Assembly: GCA_029931535.1 (NCBI GenBank)
Contig: JAQPZY010000951.1
Location: forward strand, 750,535-814,534
Source of the DNA: Margaritifera margaritifera
Taxonomy: Eukaryota > Mollusca > Bivalvia > Unionida > Margaritiferidae
Direction of reading: 5' to 3'
Length of the DNA stretch: 64,000 bases
The translations under genes were made by a program, and so were the position numbers. Numbering within the stretch: the stretch's first letter is position 1; every line of letters begins with the position of its first letter. The notes below the pieces were generated by a model, which saw only the letters and a list, made by a program, of their open reading frames with translations, was not told the DNA's origin and did not search any database. Below are positions 28,306-57,790 of the stretch, piece by piece.

Positions 28306-29365
28306 CAAACGCAAATAAAATAAAATCATAATCTGTTAAATCATTTATTGTTTGTTACTATTTAGTAATTGCATTTGACAAAGACTCAGTCAAAGTCGAT
28401 AGCGCTCAGTCTATCAGACTAGTTACAAAAACTAGTGGGGGGTGGAGGGGGAGAGGAAGGACACTGCTGACCGTAGGTGTACCTTTTTGACAGAAAAAGC
28501 CTATGTTAAGAGTTGCGCTGTTATAATGACAGTTATAATTTCACAATGAATATTTACATTGATTTTTTTCCTGTAAAAAAGAAGTAGAATTTATATGTGA
28601 AATAAAGCAAATTAAAGCTAACATTGTGGACAGATATGTATTTTTAAATAAAGAATCAAGATTAAGAGCAAAATGGCAAGTTTACAAATTACATTGTGTA
28701 CTGTGGACTGATTACGTTCTCCACACAATCACTAAATGATAACATGCCAGGATAATCAAGTAAGTATTTAAACTGGATCAGCAATACAACAGAATTGAGT
28801 CAGCCGACTGAAGAGGGTCTTCTTCATATAGTCTGTCATAACTGAAACCAATACAGACAAAAATCTGCATAACATATTTAAAACTTAAGGCTTGTAACGC
28901 CCTGGTCAACAATAACGATAACTATAAAGCAATTAGTAACATTTATTAGGGAACAAGGACAATACTGAAGCTCTAATTCTTACCAATGCCAAATTAAATG
29001 TTTATTTACATACATGGTGACTTATGTATCAGTTTTTGCCGTAATTGATTTAAAATTCTACATAAAGGATTTATTTACCATTACAAAATTAATGTGAAAT
29101 AATTCGTTTATTACTAGCTTTCTCCAAGTTATCCTCTCTGTCACTTTTCATATAGTATGTCCATATTGATTTATCCAGTAATCCAAAAGGACGGCATAAT
29201 TGTGCCAAAAGTTGATCTTACCCGTACGCATTAGAAGTACTAATTGTATATTGCAGCTTCCTTCTAGCAGATGCTAGGCCAAATATAGAATGTTGTCAAT
29301 CCAATAATAGTAACTTCAGCATACGGGGATTAACTTTACGCCGTAGGATTACATGAAATCACACT
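28306..29365. other. Non-coding with a G-rich tract
   Basis: A G-rich run at 28435-28460 (GTGGGGGGTGGAGGGGGAG) could form a G-quadruplex on the plus strand. Nothing else recognised. Confidence 0.5.
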
Positions 29366-29890
29366 TTAGGGTCAAACGGGAATTTAACATGGAAATGGCA
29401 ATATGGGGTTAAACGGGAAATATAATGTTAGAAATGTCCCTCCATTAAGTTTAAAAATATATGGGTCAAACGGGAATTTAACATGGAAATGGCATTATGG
29501 GGTCAAACGGGAATTTAACATGGAAATGGCACTATGGGGTCAAACGGGAAATGTAATGCTAAAATTTGAACATAGGTTTAACATTATAGGATTATATAGG
29601 GTCAAACGAGCAATGTAATGTGAGCTAGTTATGTACTATCCAACATCTACTAATTTACTATCCAACACCCCACACATACTATCCAATACCTAGTTATCTA
29701 CTAATCATCCAACACGCTGTGTGTAGTGACCAAGACCCTACTATCCAATACTGCACATTTACTATCCAACACGCCGTGTGTGACGAACAATACTTAGTCA
29801 TCTACTATCCAACGTCTAATTATCTACAATTATCCAAAACCCCACACATACTATCCCACATGCCACACATACTACCGAACGCTCCAGACA
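29366..29890. repeat. Left arm minisatellites
   Basis: About six copies of a 36-bp unit containing GGTCAAACGGGAATTTAAC at 29366-29612 are followed by about twelve short units containing ACTATCCAACA with CACACATACT at 29635-29885. The same two families, in mirror order and reverse complement, form the right arm. Confidence 0.85.
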
Positions 29891-30037
29891 CTATACCCAC
29901 AAACACAAGAGGGGGATATGGTTTTAAGTTTTAGTATTTTACGAGGAGTTTTGGTTTTTATGAATAGACATACACAACATAAAACACATAGATTTCTCAA
30001 TGATTGAGTAGTATCTCAGTTTCTAAGAGAAATGGGT

Positions 30038-30053
30038 GGCCTTGAAAAGGGCC
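30038..30053 (-). promoter_or_regulatory. Histone-type mRNA 3' stem-loop, left
   Basis: On the minus strand GGCCCT-TTTC-AAGGCC has a six-base stem with one mismatched pair and a four-base loop. It is preceded by CCAAC and followed by ACCCA, the flanks expected of metazoan replication-dependent histone mRNAs. It marks the 3' end of the minus-strand gene remnant. Confidence 0.75.
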
Positions 30054-30690
30054 GTTGGGCGTTGTCCTGGATCGATGATGTTTGTCTATATTCAGAACAA
30101 CTGCACCTCCAAGCCCGGGCTCGGCAACAAGGGCATATCTGGACCAAGTTCTCTGTTGTTCGGCGGACGGAGAGATTGATCCTAACATCAATCCATTCGT
30201 CTCCATCTCCAAGTCCTCTCGTAAGGAAACAAGGGTAGTTGTTGTTGTTGTTGTTGTTATTGTTGTTGCTGCTGCTACTCTTTTTTTCTCTGTCGCAGTC
30301 TCTTTTGCGCCTTCTTCTGGATGCCATTCAGTCTCTGGAAACTCCTTTCTTCTCTTTAGTTACTGTACCCTCCTTTATTCCACCCATGACATCTTGATTT
30401 TCTTCCACATCCTTATCCATGACGTTTTCGTACAGTTTATCTGCATCTTCGTGGGGTATGACTCCATTTCCTCTGCCCGACCCAGGAGGCATTCAACCGA
30501 GTCCATTAAAATGATTTGCCTCTCTTGCCTTTCACACTCTGCAAAGATAACAAATCGCACAAAGTCAAATTGAAGCCATTCTCTTCTGGACGAATACTCG
30601 AAACAACAGCAGAAACCCTGCTATCAATCCGAGTATAAGAGGTATTCAGTGCATGTGCACCCCAAAACAACGTCTTCATTTCAATAATGT
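30054..30690 (-). pseudogene. Minus-strand gene of the stem-loop element
   Basis: An ATG at about 30676 opens 57 codons (MKTLFWGAHALNTSYTRIDS...) to a TAA. Another frame continues (AECERQERQIILMDSVECLL, MQINCTKTSWIRMWKKIKM). Later come a basic stretch (KKAQKRLRQRKK) and a CAA/CAG-rich Gln-rich tract, then the region leading into the stem-loop. The last 250 bp or so match the copy at 50980-51260, including the Gln-rich tract and LVAEPG-GGA. There are several stops and frame changes. It does not resemble any histone. Function unknown. Confidence 0.5.
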
Positions 30691-30740
30691 GTATTGTACT
30701 TGAACTCTTCAGCAGTGGTATATCGTAGGAACTCTCGTGC

Positions 30741-30743
<3 letters not shown>

Positions 30744-30830
<87 letters not shown>

Positions 30831-30831
30831 T
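30744..30831. repeat. (TA)n(GT)n(TA)n microsatellite
   Basis: Composite tract between the two divergent gene remnants, in the likely promoter interval. Confidence 0.97.
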
Positions 30832-30917
30832 AATAGTAAAGACACACGCGTTCTAAATTTTGTCACACGCGTTCTGATTGGTAGAACACCCCAATTAGTT
30901 TCGATCCGGTCCTAGAC

Positions 30918-30928
30918 TCTATATAGAG
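30918..30928 (+). promoter_or_regulatory. TATA box of the plus-strand gene
   Basis: CTATATAGAGG lies about 55 bases before the ATG at 30975. That gives a very short 5' leader, as in histone and many viral genes. Confidence 0.5.
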
Positions 30929-30974
30929 GAACGTTGGCCCACCGTATCATCTGTTCTCAGGACAACCCAACAAG

Positions 30975-31201
30975 ATGTGGGCAAGCGTTGAATACTCCCC
31001 CATCATTTCCAGCATGCTGTTTAAATACGGAGTACCCTATGTATATCCAGGCAACGTGGGCGATCACAAGCATTACCTACACACCTATTTGGAAGAGAAG
31101 AGTCTATGTGGAGAGACAAGGATACCTCAAGCGAGTGTAAGGAGAAGCTTGCAAACAAGATATGTGAAGCAGTGCCACCCGTGTTCAGCTTCTTTGGTTA
31201 A
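30975..31201 (+). pseudogene. Plus-strand gene of the stem-loop element, one apparent frameshift
   Basis: ATG at 30975 opens MWASVEYSPIISSMLFKYGV..., rich in Tyr, Pro and Gly, and runs on as ...DHKHYLHTYLEEKSLCGE. Around 31105-31120 coding character moves to another frame (DKDTSSECKEKLANKICEAV), ending in TAA at 31199-31201, only ten bases before the histone-type stem-loop. TATA box, short leader, short coding region and stem-loop together make a complete minimal transcription unit apart from the frame break. The alternative is that the ATG frame is the real one; it runs through the stem-loop to 31223. The product is not recognised and is not a histone. Confidence 0.5.
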
Positions 31202-31211
31202 CCACCCCAAC

Positions 31212-31227
31212 GGCCCTTTTTAGGGCC
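31212..31227 (+). promoter_or_regulatory. Histone-type mRNA 3' stem-loop, right
   Basis: GGCCCT-TTTT-AGGGCC has a perfect six-base stem and four-base loop. It is preceded by CCCCAAC and followed by ACCAAA. Downstream, TTCTCTTAGAAAC-GAGATACCACT is shared with the left copy and could include a processing element that binds U7 RNA. Confidence 0.85.
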
Positions 31228-31499
31228 ACCAAATTCTCTTAGAAACAGAGATACCACTCGATCATTGCCACTATGCCACTGTGTTTCATGTTTGTGTATG
31301 TATATCTATGTTCATAAAAGCTCAAACTTAAAACACCAGACCCATCCTGTGCGATAGTGGGTATAGTGTTTATTATAAACACTCCTACCCTTTGGGTTGT
31401 GATAATATGCTTGTATGTATGTAAGTATAGTATGTATAATAATACTCCTCTGTGATATTGTGTGATTTTATTCCCTTTCTTTTTCATCCTATCCTTTTC

Positions 31500-31976
31500 T
31501 TTGGATAGTAGGTGTGCGGTTTTGGTCACTACATACAAAGTGTTGGATAGTATGTATGGCGTGTTGGGCAGTATGTGTGTGGTATCGGATAGTAGATATC
31601 TACGTGTAGGATAATAGTTGACTAAGTATTGGTTACTGCACCTGGCATGTTGGATAGTAAATCTGGCGTATTGAATAGTATGTGTGGGATATTGGTCACT
31701 ACACATGGCATGTTGGATAGTGGATAACTGGGTATTGGATAGTACATGTGGGGTGTTGGATACTAGTTCACTGGATGTTGGATAGTAGACAACTTTTTCA
31801 CATTACATTTCCGGTTCGAGCCTATATAATCCCATAATGCTAAACCTATGGACACGTTTTTAAACATTACATTTCCCGTTTGACCCCCTTAGTGCCATTT
31901 CAATGTTAAATTCCCGTTTGACCCCACAGTGACATCTCAATATTAAAAATATTATTTCCAGTCTGACCCCATATTG
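31500..31976. repeat. Right arm minisatellites
   Basis: Reverse complements of the left-arm families: TGTTGGATAGTA-type units at about 31503-31790, then CCCGTTTGACCCC-type units at about 31805-31976. Confidence 0.85.
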
Positions 31977-33298
31977 CCACATATTACTACTCTCAATGAC
32001 ACTCCTGTGTATACTCTAAACACTGCTCTAACCATGTAGGTTTTATCTTTGTAACATGTATTAGATGTTTACCGCACGTATTTTCTCCAAAACCGAATTA
32101 AATATATAGCACCAGTACGACTACTTCTTAAAGATTTAGAAAAAGGTAGGATGGATGATAAAATAGGAAACGTTGCACCACAGGGGTTCGCATCGTTGTT
32201 TACAATTTACCTTTAAATAATAAAGACACTATATATTACAATACATTATATGAAGTACATATACTATTTATAGGTATATTGTAAGCATCGATGCGAGCTC
32301 AAGTGAGTTTTACAATATAATAATAGGCATTCGCATTAAACAGGCACCACTCACAACATTGCAATTACAATATATACCATAACCATAAACAATGATATAA
32401 TGTCAATATCCATGGTTCTAACTATTTTTATATTTAGTGATGTATCTCAAATCGTACCCCAAGTCCATATAGAGTCTCTGTTTAATTAGTCACTCCACGT
32501 GAAAACGAGGCTGGGCACGGGGTCGTGCGTCAGCTAACATGCAGGTATTGATAAACATTGACAACATTGAGTTAGTAAAGAAATTAAATGAAAATAAATA
32601 AAATTGCTTACCTGGCAGAAGCCATCATGACATAAATATATAACGATTGATCATACTATCCAATTATACCACCGTTTTCTTCTGAGCTTTTATCTTTGTT
32701 TTCATGTGATATACTTGCAACATTTATACATGCCCTTGTCAAAAAGTCACACTATTAATTGCTTCCTTTGTCACTTGAAATTGATACATTATGCTGTGAT
32801 CTAAATAAGCATTGTTTTACAAAAATGCGCTCTGAAACAGAGCGGGCGAAACTTATTTTCCAAATGTATTTATAAGTCTGTAGTTTTTGGTTTTGCGAAG
32901 TTTGCTTATAAATTCCATATAATTCTTGATTGTAAGCGTTTGAGCCATGATATACAAATACAACTGACGTCTTCAAACGGCAGTGATCGATCAAATGAGT
33001 ACGACTTTGATGTGATTTATAATATTCTGAGTATCAGTTATAATATTTTCAACGGTTCTGCTTCCGTCGTATTTAAAACAAGTTGGATTGGCGTAAATGT
33101 CGCCATGTGTTTTATCACTAAAAGAGATATACCAGTGATTATACATATTTGTACTGGCTTTTGCAAAGTTTTTTACTACTAAAGTCATGTTATTTCTGGG
33201 TATGTTAGTGTGAGTATCCAAATTTGGTAGAACTGACTGTTTGGATTGTGAGACCTCATTTATGTAGTCTTCTATCACTCCACTTCAGCTATCAAACT
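31977..33298. other. Non-coding, nothing recognised
   Basis: AT-rich sequence with several short overlapping open frames on both strands that look random. A poly-C run follows at 33299-33309. Confidence 0.45.
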
Positions 33299-46399: not shown

Positions 46400-46700
46400 C
46401 AGCACTTTTAGGTCCCAAGGAAGTACTTGACCTGTTTCCTTTTTTAGTAAGATTCGCTCATTTTAATTACAAAACGACAAAGATTGCTATATACGACTGC
46501 AACATCTGATTATATATCATAAACAGCGTTGAATTACAATGTATGTATAAATCTTTTATTATAACCCTGTTTTTAGGTATGCATATATCTATGCAAATAT
46601 AGGCATAATTACAAACGTAAGTAACTAAACGCACGATTGCATACAAGCATATATAGTTTGATGGATGCACGGATGTGTTGGTACACGTATATGCTTATAT
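46400..46700 (-). repeat. Outer inverted repeat, right arm
   Basis: Reverse-complement partner of 36655-36985. It may extend the large inverted duplication outward or be an independent repeat pair. Confidence 0.75.
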
Positions 46701-46705
46701 GTATT

Positions 46706-46778
<73 letters not shown>
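46706..46778. repeat. (TC)n(TA)n microsatellite
   Basis: TC at 46706-46719 and TA at 46720-46778, directly before the Penelope-like fragment. Confidence 0.97.
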
Positions 46779-46780
<2 letters not shown>

Positions 46781-46786
46781 GTCCTT

Positions 46787-47290
46787 TATTCTAAACCAAC
46801 TGCTGACTCTCACCAGTATCTACTCCAAACCAGCTGCCACCCTCACACAAATAAAAACTCCTTACCGTATGTGCACCTGGACCAAACGAATATGCTCTAA
46901 TCCGGTTACATTTGAAAAGAGACTCGGACAGCTCAAGGGGAACCTTAGAAGGAGAGGATACAGAAATAGCTACATCGAAGAGGCTATTAACAAAACTAGA
47001 CTCCTCGATAGAGGAGTCCTCCTGAAATATAAAACCAAGAAAAGCCTCAAAAGCGTCTCGCTCGTGATTACTTTCCACCCCGACGCCCCAAAAATACACC
47101 AGAAACACCGGAAGCATTTGAACCAGATTAAATCCTTGGAAGATCTGAAGGGAATATTTCAAAAAGTTCTTATGGTTGCGTACCCTAGTCCTAAAAATCT
47201 GAAGGTCCATCTGGTACGTGCCAAGGTAACTTCAGACAAGACCACAGATTCAGGCACATAGTGCTGCAAAGACAAGCGTTGCCTAATTAA
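46787..47290 (+). pseudogene. Penelope-like element reverse transcriptase C-terminal part
   Basis: Immediately after the TA tract one frame reads LYSKPTADSHQYLLQTSCHP, the conserved Penelope 'LYxKPTDxHQYL...SCHP' block. A frameshift near 46880 leads to RRICSNPVTFEKRLGQLK, then NLRRRGYRNSYIEEAI, SVSLVITFHPDAPKI, EDLKGIF and NLKVHLVRAKV. These are the characteristic thumb and linker motifs (RRICS, L-RRGY, LVITxxP, LxVRAK). The frame ends at TAG near 47261, where a Cys-rich linker (CCKDKRC) would start. The RT catalytic core is missing (5'-truncated) and the endonuclease is absent. Confidence 0.85.
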
Positions 47291-50799: not shown

Positions 50800-51380
50800 A
50801 GGAATATTCACACTGTACACGCAAACATACTTATATACTATCACACACGAAAGGTTAGGAGTGCTCACACACTATACAATACATAGACAAAGACATACAC
50901 ACATAAAAAGATACATGTTTTGGAATCATTTGAGTATTATCCTTGTTTATGATAGAACTGGGTGGCCCTGAAAAGGGCCGTTGGTCTTTGTCCTGCATCG
51001 TTGACGTTATCAATATCCAGGATAGCTGCACCTCCCGGTCCTGGCTCTGCAACAAGAGAACATCTCGTTGTAGTTCTTCTATTCAACGACGGAGACAGAG
51101 AGTCTAAAATTGGGAGCCTCTGCTTCCCATTTCCCAATTTTCTGTCAGTGGGATTAGGAGTTGTTCTAGCTGCTGATATTGCTGCTGCTGCTCCTGTTGT
51201 TGTTGCCAGAGGTATTCCTCCCTCTCATCTTCTTGTTACTTCAGCCTTTGCTGTACCATTATCCAGTTTTTGGCTGAGGCGTTGGAATTATCTCCCCATC
51301 TTCTCTCGCTTCCTTTCCCTCTTCTCCTCCGCACAAGTCATCTTTATCTTCTCCGGAACAATGCTCAAATAATACTTCCA
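50800..51380 (-). mobile_element. Third, partial copy of the stem-loop element
   Basis: Minus-strand coding-like sequence with a Gln-rich tract (CAACAACAACAGGAGCAGCAG) and LVAEPGPGGAAILDID leads into a histone-type stem-loop. That is followed by the arm's inner unique part (ATAATACTCAAATGATT, ACATACACACATA, GGTTAGGAGTG). It corresponds to 30290 down to about 29890 of the full element. Neither arm minisatellite is present, so it is truncated. The upstream part (EEKRERKREKMG) differs more. Confidence 0.7.
50964..50979 (-). promoter_or_regulatory. Histone-type mRNA 3' stem-loop, third copy
   Basis: The minus strand GGCCCT-TTTC-AGGGCC is a perfect six-base stem with four-base loop, preceded by ACCAAC and followed by ACCCAG. 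It is an essentially canonical match to the metazoan histone mRNA 3' end. Confidence 0.85.
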
Positions 51381-51633
51381 ATAGATGCATAATTATGTGA
51401 AGTATTTTAAATTCAAGGTTTTAGTTTGCGTTTGTTGTTTCTCTCTGTATTATAATGCCTTCGAAAAAGACTCATTCAGAATCAACAGACTGTAGGCAAG
51501 TTAAAACTAGTTAAGCACTGTTCATTGCCAGCTTTGTACAATAATCCTAATCAATTCCCTGACTCACTCGATCCTTTTCTGGAGATCCAATGTCTCTGAA
51601 AGAACTGTTATTCGCCATATGATATGATACGAT

Positions 51634-53204: not shown

Positions 53205-53942
53205 AATATGAAAACATTTCAGGAACATTCAATTTTTAAACAATCAACTGGTTTAAACATCCTCGAAATCTATATGAAAACGTCTCTAGAACATATATAC
53301 ATGTATAAATCACCATCAATCAGTGTAGCAGTTCAAGAACAAAATGACCATTACCCCGCATTTCTAACTCGCAAGACCAATATTTTCACCCCCATATCAT
53401 CTCACCATACAATTTCATATAGATCTTGCAAAAATTTCAATGAGAAATTCCAAGAGGAATTAAAATATGCTCCATGGGATAATATAAAAATGTTTGATGA
53501 TGTCAGTGATGCTTTAGATTCTTGGTACTCAGTCTTTATGGATGTCAATGATAGGCACACTCCTTTGAAAAAGCACAGAGTTAAACATGTTATTCAACTA
53601 AACTGGATTATACCAGAAATCATACAAGCAATAAAAACAAGTGGTTGATATAAACCACTGGGAAACATTGACCAATACAAAAAAGTGAGAAATGAAGTTG
53701 TAAGGCTCATAAGGTTATAAAAAAAATCTCATTGGCAACAATTGATTGACGAATCGAAACAGAAACCAGGAAACATTTGTAAACTCTTTAAAGAAATTGG
53801 AGCTGGTAAAGGTCATTCCCATTTATATTCTAATAATTGTCACATCTTAAGAAAGGATAGTGTATGCATAAATAACAATGAAGATAGTGCCAATGAGTTC
53901 AGAAACTTTTGTAACTTTTTTAGTACTTTATATCGGAATTGA
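53205..53942 (+). pseudogene. Non-LTR retrotransposon ORF2 fragment (endonuclease end and linker)
   Basis: The plus frame holds TSLEHIYMYKSPS (the 'xLIDHIY' block) and NDHYPAFLTRK (the 'SDHxP' end of the apurinic endonuclease domain). A linker follows, with SYRSCKNFNEKFQEELK, WDNIKMFDDVSDALDSWYSV and HTPLKKHRVK, typical of Jockey/CR1/I-group elements. In-frame stops occur at 53647 (TGA) and near 53717 (TAA). Coding similarity goes on as KKSHWQQLIDESKQKPGNIC up to 53942. The reverse transcriptase is absent. Truncated at both ends. Confidence 0.85.
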
Positions 53943-57424: not shown

Positions 57425-57790
57425 AGGATCCAGGCAGTGCTGGATTACCCAATGGGCAAACTAAGCACGTGCTTAGGGGATCTGCAGAGTCGGGACACCA
57501 AAACAAAATGAGAAATTAGTTGGGGTTTTTATGCTTAGGACACCAACAACAAAATTAGAAATTAGTTGGGGTTTTTATGCTTAGGACACCAACAACAAAA
57601 AATTAGAAATTAGTTGGGGTTTTTATGCTTAGGGCACCAACAACAAAATTAGAAATTAGTTGGGGTTTTTATGCTTAGGGCACCAACAACAAAATTAGAA
57701 ATTAGTTGGGGTTTTTATGCTTAGGGCACCAACAACAAAAAATGAGAAATTAGGTGAGTTTTTTTTTTTTTTTTTTTAATTACATGGGGG
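57425..57790. repeat. 46-48-bp minisatellite
   Basis: Five to six units of AGAAATTAGTTGGGGTTTTT plus ATGCTTAGG(G/A)CACC and AACAACAAAA at 57505-57760. They are preceded by a related single-copy stretch with palindrome TAAGCACGTGCTTA at about 57460-57473, and followed by a poly-T and poly-G stretch. Confidence 0.92.

Follow-up and report, generated by a model that had tools for sequence, protein, structure and literature searches.

A stem-loop at the 3' end is regarded as a mark of the replication-dependent histone mRNAs of animals. The Maverick/Polinton superfamily is already known, and AGTAGT..ACTACT-type ends and 6-bp duplications are given for vertebrate Mavericks in the accessible part of PMC8097293. 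Literature searches yielded, among the papers listed, no description of histone stem-loops in Mavericks, adintoviruses, transposons or viruses, and a term search within the available text of PMC10120064 and PMC8363768 gave none for Mavericks. The only related mention found is a scan of polinton-like viruses (PLVs) and virophages, in the accessible sections of which six histone stem-loop hits appear as a bare count without location, gene association or discussion, and in which only tRNAs and group I introns are given for the cryptophyte PLVs (PMC12220804). The subject here is an element of about 2.7 kb in a stretch of 64,000 nucleotides from the bivalve Margaritifera margaritifera (assembly GCA_029931535.1, contig JAQPZY010000951.1, positions 750,535 to 814,534), the whole of which is referred to below as the window. 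The element carries two outward-reading gene remnants, one per strand, which run into histone-type stem-loops. Judged by its sequence it is a dead, internally deleted Maverick/Polinton, and it is very probable that the Maverick lineage concerned uses SLBP/U7 histone 3'-end processing for a set of accessory genes at its ends.

Histone-type stem-loops in the window and in a young Maverick

The initial annotation of this locus had placed the two stem-loops at the inner edges of a pair of inverted arms, and covariance scanning (cmscan) together with self-alignment bears this out, with the refinement that the hairpins sit within the arms, as their innermost part; the sequence 3' of the left stem-loop is of terminal inverted repeat (TIR) type. 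The proposed covariance search with the Rfam model RF00032 (Histone3, cut-off 34 bits) was passed by two of the three stem-loops of the window, namely the right one (31207-31252(+), 35.7 bits) and a third, intact one that follows another copy of the 3' part of the left gene (50939-50984(-), 36.8 bits). The left stem-loop (30013-30058(-)) falls under the cut-off at 26.9 bits, with E = 9.5e-5 in a local scan, because one of its stem pairs is broken. A regular-expression scan found three such hairpins in the 64 kb and none in 100 first-order Markov sequences.

When the genome was searched with Histone3, the best 75 of 508,685 first-look candidates were scored and all were above the cut-off, the best at 45.8 bits; the genome match lists used throughout are best-of samples and their counts are lower bounds. 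The stem-loops at the 30 places that were opened end genes other than core histones, and the Maverick family B polymerase (PolB) was found in seven of the eight interior stretches fetched behind opened stem-loops. For ten of the 75 stem-loops, at nine integrase places, one of the best 150 Maverick integrases is no more than 16 kb away, where 0.15 would be expected, and in all ten cases the integrase is on the interior side. These 150 integrase copies, the best of 26,382 first-look candidates, are 93-100% identical and many are without stops, which is a recent, large expansion.

Two of the ten stem-loops, C72:124978(-) and C72:145090(+), point away from each other across 20 kb of one contig (C72), and their flanks are inverted repeats (97% over 185 bp). 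The element between them is assigned to the Mavericks/Polintons because it combines an rve integrase (PF00665, E 2e-13), a chromodomain (E 2.4e-6) and a polymerase (DNA_pol_B_2, PF03175, E 1.2e-6, a match at the level of family B) with AGTAGT/ACTACT ends within a perfect 6-bp target duplication, ATCCTC. The domain matches come from two stretches of the element that were read apart, C72:134001-135999 lying outside them. Two open reading frames (ORFs) called capsid by position alone are without a Pfam match and a third (150 aa), scanned against PHROGs only, is without a match there; no packaging ATPase was identified in the stretches read. A BIR (inhibitor-of-apoptosis) gene lies on the polymerase's inner side at 136971-137573(-) (L063:972-1574; PF00653, E 2.9e-23), with relatives by tblastn in two other loci (L068 and L007).

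Five stem-loops were found in the C72 element: one in each TIR, a second, non-TIR hairpin near each end, and one behind an inward-reading gene, LEFT, which was found by a motif scan and is, like the left hairpin of the window, below the RF00032 gathering score. No core gene in the two stretches read is followed by a stem-loop, and no further one was found there. A second inverted stretch occurs at the element's ends inside the TIR, between the two hairpins (L041:1857-2027 vs L042:773-941, 95% over 171 bp), as if a 5' region had been duplicated between the ends. Tandem pairs of stem-loop genes on one strand are common at Maverick ends (L034, L042, L046, L047 and others), with hairpins about 740-940 bp apart.

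The outermost hairpin forms the inner border of the TIR both in the window and in C72, and it could accordingly be asked if the hairpin belongs to the TIR at the DNA level, as an origin, a packaging or an integrase signal, and merely resembles the histone RNA element. This is unlikely. Not all hairpins belong to the TIR: further ones follow other genes, among them LEFT, which reads inward. The hairpin lies on the coding strand past the stop codon in the 24 ORFs examined, starting 16-35 nt past it in 20; in the other four a variant hairpin, missed by the search expression, was seen by eye, partly only its start. The flanks, the loop and the downstream element also fit the histone model, beyond the stem. 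A role at the DNA level only is made less likely by the fact that the hairpin is found outside the TIRs as well and follows the coding frame in the cases examined.

Origin of the window element

The genome-wide search with the element that had been suggested was carried out over the 2.45-Gb genome with 29900-31330 as query; the best 40 of 3,956 candidates were scored, giving at least 121 matched rows, and 30 loci were opened, the window (L002) among them. Three loci, L003, L005 and the more diverged L004, have the flanks of the window and are for that reason duplicates of one insertion. Including flanks, L003 is 97.5% and L005 99.4% identical to the window locus, and L004, some 92 kb off on the same contig, is 79-86% identical to it. 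The remaining loci (L006-L031) are 67-77% identical to the query. Core-region ORFs of the C72 Maverick were matched by 18 of the 25 independent right-gene loci, and in 15 of those the polymerase was among the matches; two of the 25 (L016 and L029) matched none of the 17 ORFs of the C72 element.

The main match to the window begins at 30540-30544 in seven of the 25 right-end loci and a second stretch begins there in three more, no locus of the 25 beginning its match below this point, and the homology of the one left-end copy (L024), which is adjoined by a Maverick protease match, ends at 30549. It follows from these start and stop boundaries that in the window element the two ends of a longer one have been fused by deletion. 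The deletion would have brought a left end (TIR, stem-loop and the 3' part of a left-end gene) against a right end (5' part of LEFT, promoter, the outward-reading gene RIGHT, stem-loop and TIR). Recombination between the stem-loops was considered as the source of the short form and dropped, the junction being some 490 bp interior to the left stem-loop. The initial annotation knew of no named family with this design, a statement that has to be withdrawn: the element is an internal-deletion derivative of a Maverick/Polinton, and its two genes are leftovers of the longer element's ends. Both are broken and non-histone, as had been claimed.

It might be held instead that the two-gene form of 2.7 kb makes up a separate mobile family, propagated as a satellite of Mavericks, since both TIRs are kept and would be recognisable by integrase and polymerase. 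Of the 29 right-gene loci (L024 excluded), 16 allowed the left stem-loop to be placed, and of these only the window and L003 had minisatellite arms past it (19 hits each vs 0-1 in the other 14). With L003, L004 and L005 being duplicates of one insertion, a satellite family is decidedly unlikely, and derivation from a full-length Maverick is preferred.

The features of the window element are collected in Table 1. The two arms pair over 29477-29883 vs 31539-31947 (78.8% over 416 columns) and 29947-30059 vs 31206-31328 (78% over 123). Their likeness in order and content, already recognised in the initial annotation, holds: both have the same 37-bp and 21-bp minisatellites in the same order plus a unique part, and the arm-to-arm identity of 77.5% over 605 aligned positions points to an old insertion, on the assumption that the arms started out identical. 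The right terminus has been kept and the left one has a single change. The integrase seen in C72 has been lost from the window element. No reading frame could be settled for the left gene of the window.

Table 1. Coordinates of the window element and of a related fragment (positions in the window)
Feature	Position	Strand	Remarks
Candidate left target-site duplication, TCCAAT	29300-29305		4/6 match to right side, weak
Left inverted arm, left-end Maverick TIR	29306-30059	-	AATAGT terminus at 29306; stem-loop innermost
37-bp minisatellite of left arm	about 29354-29620
21-bp minisatellite of left arm	about 29626-29883		Unique part next, then stem-loop
Downstream-element-like stretch of left stem-loop, AGAAACTGAGA	30014-30024	-
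Left histone-type stem-loop, GGCCCT-TTTC-AAGGCC	30038-30053	-	One pair broken; then ACCCA
Left-end gene, 3' part, broken	30060-30549	-	Type as in 50891-51400 and L024
Deletion junction of left-end and right-end Maverick pieces	30540-30549		Overlap up to 10 bp
LEFT gene, 5' part, broken (right-end, inward-reading, coiled-coil)	30550-30679	-	Assigned by likeness to LEFT 5' parts of L014 and L023
Putative promoter region between divergent genes	30680-30974		(TA)n/(TG)n run; read from sequence
Boxes of promoter region	ATTGG 30877; CCAAT 30891; TATATAG 30920-30926		Read from sequence
RIGHT gene remnant, frameshifted	30975-31201	+	Frame open and intact (75-77 aa) in other copies
Right inverted arm, Maverick TIR	31206-31991	+	Ends ACTACT at 31991
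Right histone-type stem-loop, GGCCCT-TTTT-AGGGCC	31212-31227	+	6/6 pairs; then ACCAA
Downstream-element-like stretch of right stem-loop, AGAAACAGAGA	31241-31251	+
Candidate right duplication, CTCAAT	31992-31997
Second left-end Maverick fragment: gene remnant and intact stem-loop	50891-51400	-	Stem-loop 50964-50979

The second left-end fragment lies 20 kb from the element. Elsewhere in the window there are long open frames without a Pfam match at 46662-47258(+) and 53205-53645(+), which by eye are like retrotransposon remnants, and a 46-bp tandem repeat at 57493-57764 (5.8 copies, 94% matches).

Conservation of the end genes and their signals

The genes that bear the stem-loop are RIGHT, LEFT, a gene designated P200 and the left-end genes, and their frames are open in several young copies. 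RIGHT encodes about 76 aa with a basic C-terminus, LEFT about 206 aa of coiled-coil and proline/threonine-rich sequence, and P200, which is frameshifted in C72 itself, about 180-200 aa that are helical by prediction. The L042 and L033 copies of RIGHT are unlike at 42 of their 76 third positions, and their synonymous divergence (dS) is saturated, with a nonsynonymous divergence (dN) of 0.176; where dS could be computed, in two of six pairs, dN/dS was 0.15-0.17. The codon periodicity of an alignment of old right genes (28 rows, including the window duplicates L003 and L004) was reached in none of 20,000 shuffles. By these measures RIGHT is under purifying selection. P200 falls into two subfamilies, between which third positions differ most.

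Hairpins were picked from young loci, mostly those with the best Rfam scores, by a likeness of at least 19 of 25 letters to two motif strings. Among the 62 so obtained, all six pairs are formed in 59 and ACCCA stands behind the stem in 58; pair 1 is G-C in 60, pair 2 is G-C and pair 6 T-A in all 62, pairs 3-5 are pyrimidine-purine with rare exceptions (pair 4 being C-G in 35 and T-A in 26), and the loop is TTTA or TTTC in 56. In a set of 31 hairpins (26 distinct) 97.4% of cells were paired, compared with 12.8-62.8% when the pairing was slid, and the covariation score of the 26 distinct hairpins was reached by one shuffle in 500. Behind the hairpin AGAAAAGA is nearly invariant (31 aligned young sequences), and AAAGAG, which the available part of PMC7026596 gives as the purine core of the mouse histone downstream element, occurs in 22 of 37 old downstream stretches (13/23 of right type and 9/14 of left type). 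Even among 40 old hairpins in decaying copies at least five pairs are formed in 25 and all six in eight. The stem-loop is thus present in other copies of the element, its lack from which had been named beforehand as evidence to the contrary.

A histone 3' end might have been captured once with the TIR and carried passively ever since without function, and the likeness of the hairpins within one element is in keeping with this. Several gene types bear the hairpin, and in the same L042 and L033 pair of RIGHT genes, with their saturated third codon positions, the 16-nt hairpin and ACCCA are identical. The signal in RIGHT has therefore been kept where synonymous sites were randomised, and passive hitch-hiking is very unlikely when set against retention for function.

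No convincing known relative of the stem-loop gene proteins was found in Pfam, PDB or BFVD. The best PDB match of the RIGHT alignment was importin alpha (E 0.0093), and the predicted structure of RIGHT was not used (pLDDT, the prediction's confidence score, 53.8); that of P200 (helical, pLDDT 74) matched nothing in PDB or BFVD at E <= 0.001. A LEFT fragment from L018 weakly matched DUF5089 (E 0.00069, 19.9 bits, cut-off 36.1), which was taken as coiled-coil similarity. A resemblance of RIGHT to histone H4, suggested by eye, was dropped, there being no Pfam histone match and no significant PDB match. IMG/VR held no relative of the window's frameshifted right ORF, of the integrase or of the polymerase piece, and the phage database gave no match. 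The strict stem-loop pattern had no hit in IMG/VR; the relaxed one hit a single contig, which was set aside as its ORFs read as phage and it had no Rfam match at cut-off. That the copies are decayed true histone genes, which the initial annotation had itself named as a possible refutation, is extremely unlikely: a divergent pair with TATA and CCAAT boxes and stem-loops does resemble a histone gene pair, but none of the 30 opened Histone3 places (about 1.5 kb each side) had a core histone gene match with the query sequences used, which suit conserved core histones and not linker histone H1, no Pfam histone family was present in the RIGHT, LEFT and P200 proteins scanned, and Maverick genes are adjacent.

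The host histone pathway and comparison with known systems

Membership of the Maverick family, the signals and their conservation, the association of these signals with genes and coding selection on RIGHT are directly supported. What had been supposed of a mobile or virus-like element with non-histone genes that bear a histone-type 3' end was well founded, the genes being those of Mavericks with stem-loops in other copies. In the parent lineage each of a set of small accessory genes at the ends is closed by a hairpin that fits the histone model, an ACCCA flank and a purine-rich downstream element, and the core genes (polymerase, integrase and others) lack a histone stem-loop in the stretches examined. 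Transcription of the end genes would start at TATA promoters, and SLBP, the U7 small nuclear ribonucleoprotein (snRNP) and CPSF73 of the host would cleave the pre-mRNAs 3' of the hairpin, yielding stem-loop-ended, poly(A)-free messages made mainly during the cell's DNA replication; this timing would be of advantage to a DNA element that has a polymerase of its own. Since the parts recognised by SLBP and U7 stand in the right order, on the right strand and at the right distance, the lineage most likely makes such stem-loop-ended messages from its end genes, and S-phase timing would follow from the known behaviour of the pathway. What we infer from these parts is that the messages are processed in this way and lack poly(A), that they are timed to S phase and that the element benefits. 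The sequences AATAAA or ATTAAA occur within 200 nt behind two of 14 core-region ORFs (10 nt only for one) vs one of four stem-loop genes in the same element, which is no argument either way.

Several observations weigh against this reading. One of the eight interior stretches (L071) had no Maverick gene to be seen, and only ten of the 75 stem-loops were near a listed integrase, albeit the list held the best 150 of 26,382 candidates. The adenovirus-type cysteine protease match in C72 is weak (PF00770, E 0.033, below cut-off), the window's own target-site duplication is poor (4/6) and its left-end gene is not tied to a young left-end gene. Between close P200 copies dN is roughly as large as dS or half as large, and these copies give no signal of selection. 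Picking hairpins by similarity favours intact ones and biases the conservation counts upward. Covariation is modest, with three double changes among the 26 distinct hairpins; the count of double-change pairs is reached by 41 of 500 shuffles and the count of pair types by 274. Finally, AAAGAG is present neither in the window's two downstream stretches nor in young ones, the young form being AAAAGA.

It is probable, if less firmly so than the use of the pathway by the end genes, that the whole Maverick/Polinton lineage expresses its accessory-gene module via the host histone mRNA pathway, which would make it, as far as known, the first group of DNA viruses or transposons with SLBP-dependent, poly(A)-free, S-phase-gated coding mRNAs. 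The module may even serve as an early-gene programme for sensing or forcing S phase. If true, a viral module with histone-type ends would mean that the pathway is usable by non-histone genes and that a self-synthesising DNA element is linked to the host S phase via RNA processing, and it would explain how such genes could escape RNA-seq that relies on poly(A). As a practical marker, Histone3 matches away from histone genes may indicate Maverick ends, and the open genes of young copies make the idea directly testable.

With Mavericks/Polintons and the related adintoviruses the C72 element shares the rve integrase, the chromodomain, the family B polymerase, the (AGT)2//(ACT)2 ends, the 6-bp duplication and a length of about 20 kb, and perhaps, by a weak match, the adenovirus-type protease. 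It differs from Mavericks as described in the literature listed in that it belongs to a lineage in which a set of end genes bears histone-type 3' stem-loops. The likeness to replication-dependent histone genes (RF00032, SLBP/U7) covers the stem-loop, its flanks, the context of the cleavage site, the purine-rich downstream element and the short 3' untranslated region, and the TATA/CCAAT promoter is a further feature in common with those genes; unlike them, however, the genes at the Maverick ends are virus-like and dispersed, and the proteins that they encode are not core histones.

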